IMG/VR virus record: IMGVR_UViG_3300042326_001020
Coordinates: 1-20,234 of that record
DNA: 20,234 bases
Origin: a virus
Direction: 5' to 3' (one strand)
The notes under the pieces are model-generated. The model was not told where the DNA came from, did no database searches, and was given only the letters and a program-made list of their open reading frames with translations. Both the position numbers and the translations under genes were made by a program. Below are positions 13,884 through 20,234 of this stretch, piece by piece (the stretch's first letter is position 1; each line of letters starts with the position of its first letter).

Positions 13884-13889
13884 CATGAT

Positions 13890-13996
13890 TAAAACATGTA
13901 GTACGACGAAAGAGCGTACAAGAGGCAAGAGGCTTATATGAGGGTCACATGGAATAGTTGAGAGTATCGGTGGGGTTCCGCTCGACACATGTTTTA
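13890..13996 (+). ncRNA. putative structured small RNA
   Basis: The noncoding island folds well by eye. P1 pairs TAAAACATGT (13890-13899) with ACATGTTTTA (13987-13996), ten perfect pairs. P2 pairs GTACG (13901-13905) with CGTAC (13915-13919) around a GAAA tetraloop. P3 pairs GTTGAG (13957-13962) with CTCGAC (13981-13986), one G-U, then CGG with CCG, and its 3' strand stacks directly on P1. The 13920-13956 part is single-stranded and purine-rich with three AGAGG/GAGGG runs. A -10 box precedes it and a terminator follows. It is not a tRNA: no T-loop, anticodon arm or CCA is seen. The class is unknown. Confidence 0.5.
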
Positions 13997-14006
13997 TCTA
14001 TTTAAC

Positions 14007-14034
14007 GGCGAGTCTGTAAAGGCTCGCCTTTTTT
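14007..14034 (+). terminator. strong Rho-independent terminator
   Basis: GGCGAGTCT (14007-14015) pairs with AGGCTCGCC (14020-14028) over a GTAA tetraloop, nine pairs with one G-U, followed by six T. It ends the replication operon and/or the small RNA and isolates the late operon that follows. Confidence 0.85.
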
Positions 14035-14039
14035 ATTTT

Positions 14040-14047
14040 AATAAATA
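14040..14047 (+). promoter_or_regulatory. T4-type late promoter
   Basis: AATAAATA fits the NATAAATA box recognised by gp55-type late sigma factors. It lies just after the terminator and about 26 bases before the first gene of the head-protein cassette, where a late promoter is expected. Confidence 0.55.
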
Positions 14048-14073: not shown

Positions 14074-14754
14074 ATGTTAAAATTTCAGCATTTTTTATCG
14101 ATAAATGAAGCTGTTTCTAAACCTTCAGTTAAAAACAGAAAAGCTAAACACTATTTCGACATAGACGAAACCCTTTTCGCGCACGATCACAATAAGTTAA
14201 GAGTCCACGTTAAAGACTCTTCTGGTCGTAGAGTTCGAACTTTAACAAACCAAGAATTTAACTCACATCAACTCTCCCCTGATCACAGCTACGATTTTAG
14301 CGAGTTTAGAAGCTCTGATCTATTCGATCAGTCGGCTACTCCTATCCGTGGTATGGTTGCTAAACTAAAAGCAATGAAAAAGAATGGCGCCAACGTCGAG
14401 ATGTTAACTGCTCGCGGCGACTTAGATGATAAAGAAAAGTTTGCTCAGATAATGGGTAAATATGGTATCGACATCACTCCAGGTTCTGGTGTTCACGTAC
14501 GCAGAGCTGGGAATACACAAGGAAAGCCAGCTGATACAAAGGCTGCTCATATAGCTGGAGCCATCGAAAAAGAAGGGCTAAAAGAAGTTCACTTGTACGA
14601 TGACTCTATAGACAATATTAATGGTATGCTGAAGTTACAAAAGAAATTTCCAGATGTTGCATTTCACGGTCACCATGTTCAACATGATCCTGAAACTGGT
14701 AATGTCAAAGTAACTAGATATTCAGCTACTCCTAAAGAGAAAGGTTCTAAATGA
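14074..14754 (+). CDS. HAD-superfamily phosphatase with capsid-targeting-like N-terminus
   Basis: Two ATGs stand in tandem (14071, 14074); the second is chosen because AGGG (14063-14066) is 7 bases from it and because it gives MLKFQHFLSINE, in register with T4 capsid-targeting peptides. The 226-residue protein has HAD motif I FDIDETLF (D29, D31), motif II LTARG (T112), a lysine near 156 in DTKAAH, and motif III/IV YDDS (D176, D177), plus RAGN, typical of a phage HAD family. It should remove phosphate from a small molecule or a nucleic acid end. I-N-E before A at residues 10-12 fits the gp21 protease site. It is translationally coupled to the nuclease-like gene (TGATG). Confidence 0.85.
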   Translation: MLKFQHFLSINEAVSKPSVKNRKAKHYFDIDETLFAHDHNKLRVHVKDSSGRRVRTLTNQEFNSHQLSPDHSYDFSEFRSSDLFDQSATPIRGMVAKLKAMKKNGANVEMLTARGDLDDKEKFAQIMGKYGIDITPGSGVHVRRAGNTQGKPADTKAAHIAGAIEKEGLKEVHLYDDSIDNINGMLKLQKKFPDVAFHGHHVQHDPETGNVKVTRYSATPKEKGSK

Positions 14755-16220
14755 TGTTAAATTTTTCTAATTTTTTGCTTGAAGAAAAATTAAATAAGAA
14801 TCAATATGGAAAACTTCATGAAGTTCTAGTTGGTGGATTAGTTAATCATTATGCTAAAGTTTACCAAAAAAATATTAGTAAGGGTCATGATACTGCGCAT
14901 AATATGGCTATGCAAGCTATAAACAAACCGCAAAAAATGAAAAACAGTCATATGTATTCACTAACGCATATGCCTCAATTTAAAGACAGTGATAATAAAA
15001 CTGCTGAAGATCTTCACAATGAACTAGGAAACGCTGCTGATAAAGATAATTATGAAGATATTTTTCAGCATGCTTTACATGGAGCTTCTCATTTAATAGA
15101 CCATTTGCACAAAAATGGCATTAAAGACATAAAAGGCGTACATTTTACAGCAAATAAAAATGATATCAAAAATTTAACTGGCGTAGAAGACGAAACGAAT
15201 AATTCAGATATTGTAGTTGAGCATGGTCACAAAAATCTCGGAAATGGATATTTTGGAGTAAGCTTAAAATCTGGATCAGAATCTAAACTATTTAATTCTG
15301 GTCTTGGTAAATTTTCAAAACAAATTGATGATGAATATAAAAATATAACAGGTAAATCTGGTTCGTTTGAAGCAGATTCTGAAAAAGCAGAAAATGCTGC
15401 TAAATTAGCACACGGTAAAATATTAAAAAAATATGAACCGTTTTTAAAAAGGCATTTTGGCGAAAATGGTATCTCTTCTCCAAACAAACTTTCTTACGAT
15501 AAAAATGGTAATATAAGTCTACTTAAAGACTCAGATAAAACAAAAGATGCTTTTAGATATCTTGAAAAAGCTTCAGAAGAAAAAAACAAATCAATGTATG
15601 CTAATGATAAAGACAGAGAAACTTTTGCGAACATATACAAAGAATTAAGAGACAGCAGAACTGAAATAGCTAAAAGAGCTACAAATGTTTCTTTAGGTCG
15701 TCACATGGCTAACATCATGAACGTCCAAACTCCGGAAAATAAAGAAAAAATAAGATCTTTTCTAAAGAAAACATTAAATATAGGAAGAGATCAAAGTAAA
15801 ATGCCAGTTGTAAGGTTAAATACTTGGAAAAGTACTTCTGGTGAAATTAAAAAAGGCGCGCCAGAAAGAGTTTCTGAAATATCAGATGCAGAAAACGATT
15901 TTGATTCACATTTTGAATCATCTTACGGTCAATACAAAATTACTTCTAATCCTGGTTCTATATCAACTTCATTAAGTGGTCCTTCAGGGCATGGAGTAAG
16001 TTATGTTGTTGATTCTTCACCAGCTGGTGGAAACACTGCAGTTAATCGTAGAGGCGTTCATATGTGGGACAAATCTACCTCTAGGCCACCAGTTAACCCC
16101 GTAATTAAGTCTAATCCAAAAGTAGAAAACAAACCACAAGCAGAACCTAAAAAAATAAGCAATGAGATGTTTGGTAGACAGGTTCATGCCGACCACGAAA
16201 TTTATCAAGGACATGCGTAA
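14754..16220 (+). CDS. probable PD-(D/E)xK nuclease with capsid-targeting-like N-terminus
   Basis: Tandem ATGs occur at 14751 and 14754; the second gives MLNFSNFLLE, in register with the T4 MKTYQEFIAE peptide. The 488-residue protein (numbered from 14754) has an early helix with a glutamate (KLHEVLVGGLVNHY, E23), then NSDIVVEH (D152) and, one hairpin later, YFGVSLKSG (S170-x-K172), followed by SKLFNSGLG. D...(S/E)xK with a glutamate helix is the PD-(D/E)xK nuclease pattern; the SLKSG...N block resembles HpaII-like restriction enzymes. The C-terminal third is low in motifs. The gene is visibly richer in A and in AAA/AAT/AGA codons than the replication genes. Function is inferred; the fold needs a structure prediction. 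Confidence 0.65.
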   Translation: MLNFSNFLLEEKLNKNQYGKLHEVLVGGLVNHYAKVYQKNISKGHDTAHNMAMQAINKPQKMKNSHMYSLTHMPQFKDSDNKTAEDLHNELGNAADKDNYEDIFQHALHGASHLIDHLHKNGIKDIKGVHFTANKNDIKNLTGVEDETNNSDIVVEHGHKNLGNGYFGVSLKSGSESKLFNSGLGKFSKQIDDEYKNITGKSGSFEADSEKAENAAKLAHGKILKKYEPFLKRHFGENGISSPNKLSYDKNGNISLLKDSDKTKDAFRYLEKASEEKNKSMYANDKDRETFANIYKELRDSRTEIAKRATNVSLGRHMANIMNVQTPENKEKIRSFLKKTLNIGRDQSKMPVVRLNTWKSTSGEIKKGAPERVSEISDAENDFDSHFESSYGQYKITSNPGSISTSLSGPSGHGVSYVVDSSPAGGNTAVNRRGVHMWDKSTSRPPVNPVIKSNPKVENKPQAEPKKISNEMFGRQVHADHEIYQGHA

Positions 16221-18295
16221 TGATTAACTTTTCAAATTTTCTCCTAGAAGATATAGAAGAACAAGGGAAAAAACTAAAGCATCTTACTCACCTTGAAGAC
16301 ATGGTTATTCATGGCGGTCATGAGGGTGTAGGTATTGCTGCTCAACATTTAGAAGATGTGCATAACAAGTTGCTTGGCAGAAATAATTCTACCATGGTAA
16401 CCACAAAATATGATGGTTCGCCATCAATTGTATTTGGAACACATCCAGAAACTGGTAAGTTTTTCGTTGCTTCTAAGTCTGCTTTCAATAAAGATCCTAA
16501 GATAAACTACACTCCTGAAGATATCGAACGTAATCACGGTCATGCTCCTGGATTGGTCGAGAAACTAAAAGGTGCACTAGATCACCTACCTAAAATCATG
16601 CCAAGAAATGGTGGCGTTTATCAAGGTGACTTGATGTACACCAAGGGTGATGTAACAGAAAAAAATGGTATGCGCAGTGTTACACCTAATACTATCACTT
16701 ACTCAGCGCCAAATGACAGTGAACATGGCTCTCAAATGAAAAATGCTGAGCTTGGTGTTGTGGTACATACCAAGTATTCCGGTGGTAAAAAGTTAGAGTC
16801 TATGGGTGCTTCTGCTTTAGATGAAAAGTCTAGAAATACTTTTAGAAATCATCCGGATGTCCATAACATTGACCCAACAATTGACGTCAATCCGCAAAAC
16901 TATACTGCTGAAGAGCAGCAAGCTTTCTTGAATCATTCTGCTAATGTAAGAAAAGCATATTCTGGTATGAAGCCTGAAGCTATGGATGCTATTGAGGGGC
17001 ATGGTCCTGGATTAGAAATGCATGTTAACAAAATGGTGCGCGAGGGTGGTAAACCATCAATTGAAGGTTATCTTGCTGATTTAGCTGAAAAGTCTAAAAA
17101 AGAAGTTGATAAGGTTAAAACTCCTGCAGCAAAAGAAAAGAAAATCCAAGACCATGCCAAATTGGTAAAACAAATTACTGATAATTTACCACACTTTAAG
17201 AAAGCATTAGAGGTTCATGGCCATTTACAAGCTGCCAAGAATGTATTGACTAATGTAATGGCTAAAAATAACCCTTTTATGCACTCTATCGGTGGAGAGG
17301 CTACTGGTCCAGAAGGCGGTGTTGCTGTTGATAAGAAAGGTAACATGACTAAGTTTGTTGACCGTGAAGAGTTTTCTAGGCAAAATTTCCTTAAAGGAAA
17401 ACAAAGTCAACTAGCTAAAGAGAGACAAGCCATGGCGGAATCTTTAGATGAAGCCAAAGTTATTTCTTTTGTTCGAATGAATCCAATCCATCAAGGTCAT
17501 GGTCTTGTTGTTAAAAAGGTAGCTGATGAAGCAAAGCGTAACAATGCAGATCATGAGATAATACTTTCTCACAGCCATGATCCAAAGAAAAATCCATTAA
17601 CTGCAGAGCAAAAATTAAAGCATGCTAGAAGTGCTTTTCCTGGGGTAAATTTTAGTACATCTTCACCAGCACAACCTAACTTACTTCACCATTTGAGCAG
17701 AGCATATAATGAAGGGCACAGAGAAGTAACTATTGTAGGTGGGTCTGATAGAGACGCGATGGGAGAAATGGCTAAGAAATATAATGGCGTAAAAGGACCA
17801 CATGGTTTCTATGACATGAAACTTAACTTTGCTCAAGCTGGAGGCGCAAGAGATGAGAGTGAAAGCGTTGCTGGTTATTCAGCCTCTAAAATGAGAGATG
17901 CTGCTAAGAGTAAAAACGTAGGCGCATTTAAGTCTATGGCTCCATCTTCAATGAGTGATAGAAACAAAACTGCTATGTACAATGATGTTAGAAAAGGCAT
18001 GAAGTTAAATGAAACAACAACAGCAGCTGTTGGTGGTTTAGGGTTTAACAGCGGTAATCCTGCTGCAACAAATGACGAACTTGCCAGATATGCAGACACT
18101 AATGCCGTAGCATCAGATCAAACAGGTCAATCTTTATCAAAAGAACTAAGTAATAGTCAGAACAAATTATCTAAAATTATTGGTTTCAAAGAGTACCAAC
18201 CAAAAATGAGTAGAGAAAAAGCTCTTACTTATTGGGACTATGACGAAAATGGTAATCCTTTATTAATAGACGCGCTTAAAAGAAGAGCAAAGTAA
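16220..18295 (+). CDS. fusion: KxDG ligase-type nucleotidyltransferase plus NMNAT-like adenylyltransferase
   Basis: ATG 16220 overlaps the previous stop by one base, with AAGGA at 16207-16211. The 691-residue protein begins MINFSNFLLE, the same peptide as the gene before it. Domain 1 (about 20-395) looks like a covalent nucleotidyltransferase: motif I TKYDGSPSIVFG (nucleophile K63), VYQGDLMY (133-140), LGVVVHTKYSG (178-188), and PEGGVAV...TKFVDREEF (364-385), which fits motifs IV and V of RNA/DNA ligases. Domain 2 (about 412-590) has FVRMNPIHQGH (417-427), the HxGH site of NMNAT/cytidylyltransferase-type enzymes, GGSD (507-510), and YSASKMR (553-559), the ISSxxxR-type loop. The rest is a linker and a tail. 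It may adenylylate RNA/DNA ends and make NAD or a related nucleotide; the real substrates are unknown. Confidence 0.8.
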   Translation: MINFSNFLLEDIEEQGKKLKHLTHLEDMVIHGGHEGVGIAAQHLEDVHNKLLGRNNSTMVTTKYDGSPSIVFGTHPETGKFFVASKSAFNKDPKINYTPEDIERNHGHAPGLVEKLKGALDHLPKIMPRNGGVYQGDLMYTKGDVTEKNGMRSVTPNTITYSAPNDSEHGSQMKNAELGVVVHTKYSGGKKLESMGASALDEKSRNTFRNHPDVHNIDPTIDVNPQNYTAEEQQAFLNHSANVRKAYSGMKPEAMDAIEGHGPGLEMHVNKMVREGGKPSIEGYLADLAEKSKKEVDKVKTPAAKEKKIQDHAKLVKQITDNLPHFKKALEVHGHLQAAKNVLTNVMAKNNPFMHSIGGEATGPEGGVAVDKKGNMTKFVDREEFSRQNFLKGKQSQLAKERQAMAESLDEAKVISFVRMNPIHQGHGLVVKKVADEAKRNNADHEIILSHSHDPKKNPLTAEQKLKHARSAFPGVNFSTSSPAQPNLLHHLSRAYNEGHREVTIVGGSDRDAMGEMAKKYNGVKGPHGFYDMKLNFAQAGGARDESESVAGYSASKMRDAAKSKNVGAFKSMAPSSMSDRNKTAMYNDVRKGMKLNETTTAAVGGLGFNSGNPAATNDELARYADTNAVASDQTGQSLSKELSNSQNKLSKIIGFKEYQPKMSREKALTYWDYDENGNPLLIDALKRRAK

Positions 18296-18297
18296 AC

Positions 18298-19605
18298 ATG
18301 GCACAATTTCGTAAAGATACTCACCAATATTTAAAAGATGGAACAACAATATTTGAAGTTGTCATGCTTGCAGATCAATATGGCAACTTGGTAGGTCCAT
18401 CAAATCCTACAGGTATGGCTGTTGACGCATTTGGTCGTTCAAGAGTTTCACAACCACTAACGTTGTTTGATTCTTCACATCGTTATAAAGACAACGGTTT
18501 ATGGTCAACATCAAACTCAGCCGGAACAACATATAATTTTAATGCTAATGCAGGGTTGATTGAACTCAATTTACCGACAACTTCTGGTGCTGAAATTATT
18601 AGAGAAACAACCAAGGTGTTTTCGTATCAGCCTGGTAAGTCATTGCAGATATTAAACACAGTTGTTATGTCACCACCAAAGGCAAACCTAAGACAAAGAG
18701 TTGGTTACTTTGGTAATAACAACGGTATCTATTTGGAAGCTAATGGCACCAATATTGCGTTTGTTGAACGTTCATATTCAAACGGTAATGTAGTCGAAAT
18801 AAGAGCAGAACAGGCAAATTGGAACATTGATACTCTACTAGGCAACGTTGCATCTAGTCCTTCTAAAGCAACATTGGATATGTCAAAGGCGCAGATCGTA
18901 TTCCATGATATTGAATGGTTGGGTCTTGGTTCAGTTCGTTGTGGTTTTGTTATTGATGGTAAGTTAATTCATTGCCACTCTTTTCACCATGCAAATTACA
19001 TTACATCTACTTACATGACGACTGCTTCACTTCCTGTTCGTTACGAAATTAGAAACACAGGAACAACTGCTAATAGCAGCTTAATGAAACAAGTCTGCTC
19101 ATCTGTAATCTCTGAAGGTGGATACGAACTTAGAGGTTCGCAGCAAGCAATAGGTACTCCAATAACTGCGGCACGTAGTTTGGCTACAGCAGGAACATTT
19201 TACCCAATTGTTTCATTAAGACTAAAAGCAACCTCACTAGATGCTGTAGTAATTCTTACTGCATTATCTTGTATCGCTGACACAGCAAGTAACTTCAACT
19301 GGCAGGTAAGAGCAAGCACCACTACAACAGGCGGAACATGGGTAAGTGCAGGTGATGATAGTGCTGTTGAATATAACATAACAGGCACTGGCACTTCAGG
19401 TGGCAGAACCCTTGCATCTGGTTACTTTACATCAACGGCAAGCACCAGCGCGTCTGTGGATATTCTCAAAGAAGCACTATTTAAATTTCAGCTAGAAAGA
19501 AACAGTTTTACGGGAACGCCGTTTGAAATCTCTCTTGTGTTGGCAGCCAAAACTAATGGTGAGAGTGTCTACGGATCTATGGACTGGGAAGAAGTTTCAA
19601 GATAA
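18298..19605 (+). CDS. probable virion structural protein, 435 aa
   Basis: ATG 18298 lies two bases after the previous stop. The 435-residue protein is almost free of long helices and rich in T, S, N and G, with repeated short beta-like segments, as in head or tail appendage proteins. The N-terminal block GMAVDAFGRSRVSQPLTLFD (about 39-58) and the following HRYKDNGLW are, to my recollection, seen in virion proteins of marine T4-type phages. The C-terminal half has ALSCIADTASNFNWQVRAS and alternating T/S/G turns. There is no signal peptide or catalytic motif. Its place at the end of the late operon fits a structural role; decoration protein, head fibre or tail fibre cannot be told apart. Confidence 0.65.
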   Translation: MAQFRKDTHQYLKDGTTIFEVVMLADQYGNLVGPSNPTGMAVDAFGRSRVSQPLTLFDSSHRYKDNGLWSTSNSAGTTYNFNANAGLIELNLPTTSGAEIIRETTKVFSYQPGKSLQILNTVVMSPPKANLRQRVGYFGNNNGIYLEANGTNIAFVERSYSNGNVVEIRAEQANWNIDTLLGNVASSPSKATLDMSKAQIVFHDIEWLGLGSVRCGFVIDGKLIHCHSFHHANYITSTYMTTASLPVRYEIRNTGTTANSSLMKQVCSSVISEGGYELRGSQQAIGTPITAARSLATAGTFYPIVSLRLKATSLDAVVILTALSCIADTASNFNWQVRASTTTTGGTWVSAGDDSAVEYNITGTGTSGGRTLASGYFTSTASTSASVDILKEALFKFQLERNSFTGTPFEISLVLAAKTNGESVYGSMDWEEVSR

Positions 19606-19612
19606 GTTTTAT

Positions 19613-19620
19613 TATAAATA
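19613..19620 (+). promoter_or_regulatory. T4-type late promoter
   Basis: TATAAATA is an exact match to the T4 late promoter consensus, 8 bases after the preceding stop and 71 bases before the next start, in a noncoding gap. Confidence 0.7.
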
Positions 19621-19691: not shown

Positions 19692-20234
19692 ATGGTAGAA
19701 TTGAATGATAAGCAGAAACTAGCTTTGTACAAGAAGTCACAAAGCTCTGGATACTCGATTGCGGTTTTAGAACAGATCTACCTTCGCGGCTACAACCTTT
19801 GGAACGAATCGTTCACAGGCAACCCTGAACAGTTTGGTTTTGACCGAGTTAACTCCTTCATAGCTGGTGGATACGCCACCGAATTAGACGCTGACCTTTT
19901 AGAGGGCGGAAAGGGTTTATGGGCTAATATCCACGCCAAGCGTGCCAGAATCAAGGCTGGTTCTGGTGAAAAAATGAGGAAGCCAGGATCAAAGGGTGCT
20001 CCAACTAGAGAGCAAATTAAATCAGCACAAAATGAAGAATATGAGCTAGACGAATCAGAGTCAGCCTTAGCAAAGAAGGCTGCTGCTTCAGGAGTTTCTT
20101 TAGGAACATTGAAGAAAGTGTATTCTAGAGGCGTCGCTGCTTGGAGAACTGGTCATCGTCCAGGAACTACACCACAGCAGTGGGGTATGGCTCGTGTGAA
20201 TTCATATATTACTAAAGGCAAAGGCACATATCAC
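19692..20234 (+). CDS. repeat-containing phage protein, 3' end beyond window
   Basis: ATG 19692 has AAGGG at about 19679-19683; the frame stays open for 181 codons to the window edge. Two similar units are visible: residues 9-60 (S-G-Y-S-I...LEQIYLRGYNLW...PEQFGFDRVNSFI) and 123-175 (S-G-V-S-L...LKKVYSRGVAAW...PQQWGMARVNSYI), each a helical 'Y-x-R-G-x-x-x-W ... R-V-N-S-(F/Y)-I' module. Between them sits GLWANIHAKRARIKAGSGEKMRKPGSKGAPT (in part), a basic linker of a type that I recall from marine T4-type phage proteins. A late promoter precedes it, so it is expected late; the role (virion-associated or DNA-binding) is unknown. Confidence 0.75.
   Translation, partial: MVELNDKQKLALYKKSQSSGYSIAVLEQIYLRGYNLWNESFTGNPEQFGFDRVNSFIAGGYATELDADLLEGGKGLWANIHAKRARIKAGSGEKMRKPGSKGAPTREQIKSAQNEEYELDESESALAKKAAASGVSLGTLKKVYSRGVAAWRTGHRPGTTPQQWGMARVNSYITKGKGTYH

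Follow-up and report, generated by a model that had tools for sequence, protein, structure and literature searches.

Why do three consecutive genes of a phage, whose products are largely unrelated in their bodies, begin with almost the same ten residues? The question is raised by a stretch of viral DNA of 20,234 nucleotides (positions 1 to 20,234 of IMG/VR record IMGVR_UViG_3300042326_001020, hereafter the window). It derives from an uncultured T4-like phage encoding a family B DNA polymerase, UvsX, a DnaB-type helicase and Hsp20, and its gene order matches that of Kyanoviridae, for example HTVC008M and S-SM1. The window is a fragment and lacks the head genes. The three genes are overlapping or abutting and form a cassette that adjoins the replication genes gp43, uvsX and gp41, with the helicase gene and a terminator upstream. 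Gene 1 (14074-14754, plus strand, 226 amino acids) starts with MLKFQHFLSINE and encodes a HAD-superfamily phosphatase; gene 2 (14754-16220, plus strand, 488 amino acids) starts with MLNFSNFLLE and its product is of unknown fold and function; gene 3 (16220-18295, plus strand, 691 amino acids) starts with MINFSNFLLE and encodes a DUF6267/cytidylyltransferase fusion behind a single N-terminal leader. The putative leaders occupy 14074-14109 (glutamate at residue 12), 14754-14783 and 16220-16249, all on the plus strand, and each is supported both by the ORF start and by a DNA pattern match. An extra ATG is present one codon upstream of genes 1 and 2 (14071 and 14751). The next gene (18298-19605, plus strand), a member of a head-and-packaging family of virion structural proteins (phrog_1645, E=2e-142), carries no leader. 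The three ORFs and their leader starts, proposed from sequence alone in the original prediction, were thus confirmed. The same prediction interpreted the leader as a T4-type capsid-targeting peptide on unrelated enzymes, which would be packaged, trimmed and ejected with the DNA. We find that a T4-type capsid-targeting propeptide is very likely the correct reading of the leader, trimming and ejection being inferred within it.

In the 20 kb window, the DNA pattern M-x-x-F-x-x-F-[LF] has three matches on the plus strand, all at cassette gene starts; there is none on the opposite strand, and the reversed control pattern matches nowhere. A search for further leader starts, suggested in the original prediction, gave only these three in the window and many in about 110 related IMG/VR viral loci, which were collected with the three cassette proteins and the DUF6267 profile. 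In the first set of loci, the leader was present on 52 of 343 genes and at none of 1,678 internal methionine windows. In the wider set, M-x-x-F-x-x-[FY]-[LI]-x-E occurred at a possible start of 136 of 812 non-redundant genes, as against 4 of 3,846 internal methionines (Fisher P about 2e-101). This P value is nominal, because genes within one family are not independent; chance origin of the leader is nevertheless excluded by the wider set. No leader was found on the neighbouring genes for the helicase, UvsX, DNA polymerase and phrog_1645 protein in the scanned loci. The tagged genes spread over 24 BLAST clusters, most of them apparently unrelated; a few are distant relatives of each other, and genuinely unrelated families are therefore somewhat fewer than 24.

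A shared start could also reflect common ancestry of one protein family, or an mRNA signal for translation initiation, and the first 30 bases are indeed similar in adjacent genes. Against this, the bodies are largely unrelated, and identical residues are not encoded identically: of the 9 residues that the leaders of genes 2 and 3 have in common, 5 are specified by different codons, from which it can be inferred that the peptide, not the DNA, is conserved. In addition, the tag can move by one or two residues while F-x-x-F-L-x-E persists, as seen in several DUF6267 proteins that were scored as untagged. Unrelated bodies and differing codons together rule out both readings as far as comparison can.

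The consensus of the tag is M-[LIK]-[SNKT]-F-x-x-[FY]-[LI]-x-E. Among 116 tagged genes, position 4 is F in 92% and Y in 4%, position 7 is F in 75% and Y in 25%, and position 8 is L in 66% and I in 31%; the conservation of both aromatics is partly due to construction of the search, and glutamate at residue 10 in this tally is entirely so. F4 and F7 are present in all three cassette leaders and FLLE in those of genes 2 and 3. The cleavage glutamates predicted at E12, E10 and E10 are all in place, E12 of gene 1 (within FLSINE) being the atypical one; the closest homologues of gene 1 carry E10 (MLNFSQFLSE).

In T4, the first ten residues of IPIII are enough for packaging, and mutagenesis assigned positions 4 and 7 to targeting and positions 8 and 10 to processing (PMC9026906). 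The fixed positions of the leader, 4, 7, 8 and 10, are exactly those. The predicted alignment with IPI-IPIII held in part: ipII and ipIII start with MKTYQEFIAE, while ipI, which starts with MKTFKEFTSTTT, agrees over the first part alone. The strict pattern, applied to the entire T4 genome, matched ipII, ipIII and gene 61.1 only; lambda and T7 had no forward or reverse match to it. The same core is found within the N-terminal 70 residues of the T4 major capsid protein as FGSFLTE-A, which we take to be its gp21 cleavage site. The leader thus resembles the gp21-cut targeting sequence of IPI-IPIII and Alt in its ten N-terminal residues, aromatics at 4 and 7, I/L at 8, E10 and unrelated mature parts, and also in that relatives of the window phage possess a gp21-type protease: Peptidase S77 was detected in a tagged relative of 151 kb (L018, E=4e-36), and an S77 prohead protease is annotated in S-CREM2 and S-SZBM1. 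It differs in that the cargo consists of larger enzymes and fusions, in Kyanoviridae-like phages, and in that the tag varies at positions 2-3 and shifts by one or two residues; cleavage has not been observed here. In SPN3US and phiKZ, a head protease likewise removes N-terminal propeptides from ejected proteins, but these are mostly much longer than 10-20 residues (PMC5694885).

Several observations concern the limits of the pattern. T4 gene 61.1 (NC_000866 18966-19130, minus strand; L138) encodes 54 amino acids of unknown function starting with MKTFKEFIKE, and might tentatively be regarded as an overlooked internal protein. A sub-group of the HAD proteins (L082, L084, L093, L096, L099 and others) starts with MIKKRFKEFVGSG, where F-x-x-F is kept and the cleavage glutamate is lost; by the T4 rules, these proteins would be targeted yet untrimmed. 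Many cytidylyltransferases have no tag. The DNA helicase of C48C1, encoded next to the UvsY gene, begins with MKDYSHFMVE, so some pattern matches may be due to chance. In C48C1, the tag KNFSQYLLEEE was also found upstream of the annotated ATG of a cytidyltransferase (L036 13688), and in Melnitz-1 a DUF6267 gene has a non-ATG start ahead of INFSKYITE (L051 7030). In such cases, the tag could help to correct gene starts.

Proteins with this leader, the majority being enzymes without a recognised structural function, are found in virions of relatives. Kinases, SAM hydrolase and cytidylyltransferases recur in published virion proteomes of cyanophages, whose authors could not decide between cargo and contamination, and the presence of such enzymes in particles of S-CREM2, S-SZBM1, S-SM1, S-SCSM1 and S-CRM01 has been unexplained. 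We compared the virion list of S-CREM2 (PMC10665884, Table 3) with leaders in 215 of its proteins. The pattern had been fixed on the metagenomic loci before this comparison, with a single later narrowing (position 7 to aromatic). Five of the six leader proteins were detected in purified virions (P=2.4e-4 outside named structural proteins), namely gp6 (SAM lyase family PF23780, E=2e-19), gp13, the kinase gp14, gp136 and the cytidylyltransferase gp154; the undetected sixth has 55 residues. The S-CRM01 kinase, cited as virion-associated, starts with MISFDQFLSE. In S-SM1, the sole strict match in the genome is the cytidylyltransferase gp190 (MKKFSAFLNE), and the virion contains the T4-GC190 protein (PMC3037559), assigned as this gp190. 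In S-SZBM1, one of three leader proteins was detected: the tagged cytidylyltransferase gp140 is in the proteome, the small tagged gp191 and gp192 are absent from the list of 30 proteins, and so is the adjacent untagged DUF6267 protein gp141. The cytidylyltransferase of S-PM2 has no tag and was reported as undetected in virions; the study in question is older and failed to detect genuine head proteins too. As for the cassette itself, tagged homologues of the C-terminal part of gene 3 are thus present in virions of S-CREM2, S-SZBM1 and S-SM1, whereas no proteome data exist for homologues of genes 1 and 2. In the window, a single tag precedes the fusion of the two domains, whereas the cyanophages encode DUF6267 in a gene of its own, untagged where examined.

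One rival reading takes the leader for a peptide that docks onto a cytoplasmic partner, such as a sliding clamp or a repair complex, and the tagged proteins in virions for mere abundant contaminants. The neighbourhood of replication genes speaks for it, and short aromatic-x-x-aromatic motifs are common in docking peptides. The S-CREM2 authors also allow that such enzymes might be co-purified contaminants. On the other hand, the S-CREM2 list contains no replication proteins but does contain five of six tagged ones, the T4 proteins that share the start have been proven to be internal, and promoters of tagged operons are late, not early (see below). Because virion detection follows the tag, contamination becomes less likely, and we consider docking a very improbable explanation.

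A further virion-detected protein of S-CREM2 is gp12 (L038 7704-10313), with FASFMAE-A located 18 residues in; it is annotated as Cas9-type nuclease, without Pfam support. A similar core, [FL]-x-x-F-[LI]-x-E-A, is kept at this place in four homologues (L134-L137). The large gp12 and its homologues begin with a conserved SRW..W, after which [FL]-x-x-F-[LIM]-x-E-A comes at about residue 18; this arrangement could conceivably be an extended form of the tag.

Returning to capsid targeting, packaging requires late expression. A sequence resembling a late promoter, AATAAATA (NATAAATA), is located at 14040-14047 on the plus strand, 24-31 bases ahead of the first ATG of the cassette, and has one mismatch to TATAAATA. 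It follows an intrinsic terminator (14007-14028, plus strand; 9-pair stem and T run, the stem kept in 5 relatives) that separates the cassette from the upstream genes, and in the relatives aligned with it, TATAAATA follows this terminator at a similar position. In the window alone, matches to the late promoter are not enriched (28 found, 35 expected), and relatives were therefore used for the promoter test. There, NATAAATA was present within 120 bases upstream of 24 of 30 operon-first tagged genes, compared with 54 of 161 other operon-first genes (P=2e-6), mostly 27 to 41 bases before the start codon. Since tagged operons of relatives carry late promoters, the cassette is probably expressed late as well. 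The late promoter claimed for this operon in the original prediction hence held only partly, being one base off the consensus and drawing its support from relatives. Elsewhere in the window, a perfect TATAAATA occurs at 19613-19620, ahead of an incomplete gene (19692-20234) that encodes DUF5824 (E=4e-21) without a leader.

A separate observation was made just upstream. The intergenic stretch 13885-14000 is strongly conserved between the window and L008, L009, L010 and L011 (alignment A5) and folds into a junction that is closed by pairing of AAACATG with CATGTTT; in the window, z = -3.0. The alignment of these five sequences, terminator included, contains 9 kept pairs with changes on both sides. 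No Rfam match was obtained for the stretch, and it may be a candidate for a new structured RNA.

We then come to the cargo. The assignment of gene 1 as HAD phosphatase held: DxDxT (D29/D31/T33), TAR (112-114), K156 and D176-D177 are invariant in 16 homologues, most of which match Pfam HAD families, with acid phosphatase B as the family that most of them match. The product also matches the polynucleotide kinase family phrog_415 (E=1e-6 over 177 residues), and a function as polynucleotide 3'-phosphatase is conceivable. No PDB sequence match to gene 1 was found, nor were cellular homologues that could represent an untagged ancestor; tblastn against isolated phages returned nothing closely related to genes 1 and 2. 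The 'probable nuclease' proposed for gene 2, in contrast, was not borne out. Gene 2 matches no family of Pfam, PHROG, NCBIfam or PADLOC, and an AlphaFold model of residues 1-251 (pLDDT 64) has no significant fold match in the PDB. A domain at residues 60-240 is common to proteins from L009, L013, L016 and L025, with D152, S170 and K172 invariant, and the only nuclease-like trace is this D...SxK pattern. PD-(D/E)XK and other nucleases were thus rejected for want of any detectable family or significant fold, with the reservation that confidence of the model is low. A search against known defence families gave no match.

Gene 3 was predicted to be a ligase/adenylyltransferase fusion, which held in part. 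Its DUF6267 domain (16277-17401, plus strand; PF19782, E=1e-90, 305 bits against a cut-off of 27; alignment A2) has the invariant residues KxDG (K63-Y-D65-G66), GD (136-137), EG (365-366) and K378. The second domain (17444-18022, plus strand), cytidylyltransferase/NMNAT-like with an NPIHQGH motif, matches phrog_3041 (E=9e-39) and phrog_395 (E=2e-30), while its match to CTP_transf_like (E=0.0015) is below the cut-off of Pfam. The structural model of gene 3 has a mean pLDDT of 86; the first 20 residues, below 50, lie outside the folded domain, as expected for a removable tag. Among the top 30 PDB folds are RNA editing ligase 1, T4 RNA ligase 2, DNA ligases and a capping enzyme, all as weak matches (E 0.3-2.4, none significant). 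The DUF6267 profile did not match T4 RNA ligase 2, and a PDB sequence search with it returned nothing meaningful. That DUF6267 is a ligase-like nucleotidyltransferase therefore rests on KxDG and weak fold matches, and can only be suggested.

The arrangement of the two gene 3 domains in other phages is informative about the tag. In all 18 DUF6267/cytidylyltransferase fusions there is one N-terminal tag, and in none of the 18 does an internal tag precede the second domain. Where the domains are split into two genes (43 pairs, tolerant pattern), both are tagged in 21, only DUF6267 in 16, only the cytidylyltransferase in 2 and neither in 4, two of the latter (L016 and L119) carrying near-tags. The notion that every split partner is tagged is ruled out by these counts. 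S-SZBM1 and S-SM1 carry the tag on the cytidylyltransferase but not on DUF6267. Such variable tagging indicates that gain and loss of the tag occur gene by gene; that a tagged partner brings in the other is no more than a guess. In S-PM2, DUF6267 itself is split mid-domain between p141 and p142 (L052 8026-9805), which resembles a frameshift or a sequencing error.

These properties of the cargo also bear on a second rival reading, by which the packaged proteins remain in the head, serving in its core or structure, and never reach the host. In its favour, the tagged genes adjoin the phrog_1645 head-and-packaging gene, and ejection itself is only inferred. However, the bodies are enzymes whose catalytic motifs are intact (HAD and KxDG here, SAM lyase and kinase in S-CREM2), and they differ between close relatives, which structural proteins do not. 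Retention thus appears unlikely.

According to the capsid-targeting model, which we prefer, tagged proteins would use the aromatics at positions 4 and 7 to bind the prohead core late in infection and become enclosed as the shell forms. The gp21-type prohead protease would then cut after the glutamate (residue 10, or 12 in gene 1), and the mature proteins would stay in the head with the DNA, from where they would enter the next host. The proposed cargo comprises the HAD phosphatase of gene 1, the gene 2 product, whose fold is unknown, and the ligase-like/cytidylyltransferase fusion of gene 3. A capsid-targeting leader on unrelated proteins, as originally claimed, is supported by enrichment over many families, by agreement with the positions defined in T4, by late promoters, by the protease found in L018 and by published mass spectrometry of virions from relatives, and this part of the claim held. 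Packaging of the three cassette proteins themselves is likely but inferred, there being no mass spectrometry for this phage. Trimming after the glutamate and ejection into the host likewise remain inferences.

A bolder reading combines two proposals, and we regard the combination as unlikely. As for the first, the leader, carried by about two dozen protein clusters that turn over between relatives, would be a general head-address code of Kyanoviridae-like phages. As for the second, the cassette would be a preloaded kit for repair of nucleic-acid ends, made of a 3'-phosphatase, a ligase-like enzyme and an NMNAT-like enzyme that could feed NAD or nucleotides; the kit would act before any phage gene is expressed, for example against host nucleases, and untagged partners may ride in with tagged ones.

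The targeting sequence as such has long been known from T4, and its possible use by T4-like phages to take up various proteins was pointed out in a review of Black's work (PMC9026906). What appears to be new is its presence on a set of enzymes that turns over between marine and freshwater relatives, and the explanation this offers for enzymes in virions; in the literature searched, which did not cover most subscription journals and preprints, no link of the T4 targeting sequence to marine phages was found. It is thus probable that these phages introduce a varying set of enzymes into the host together with their DNA, ejection being the inferred step. A readable ten-residue tag would explain virion enzymes and let injected proteins be predicted from sequence in viruses that rank among the ocean's most abundant. 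The question of which proteins are injected, possible counter-defence enzymes included, would thereby become testable gene by gene.
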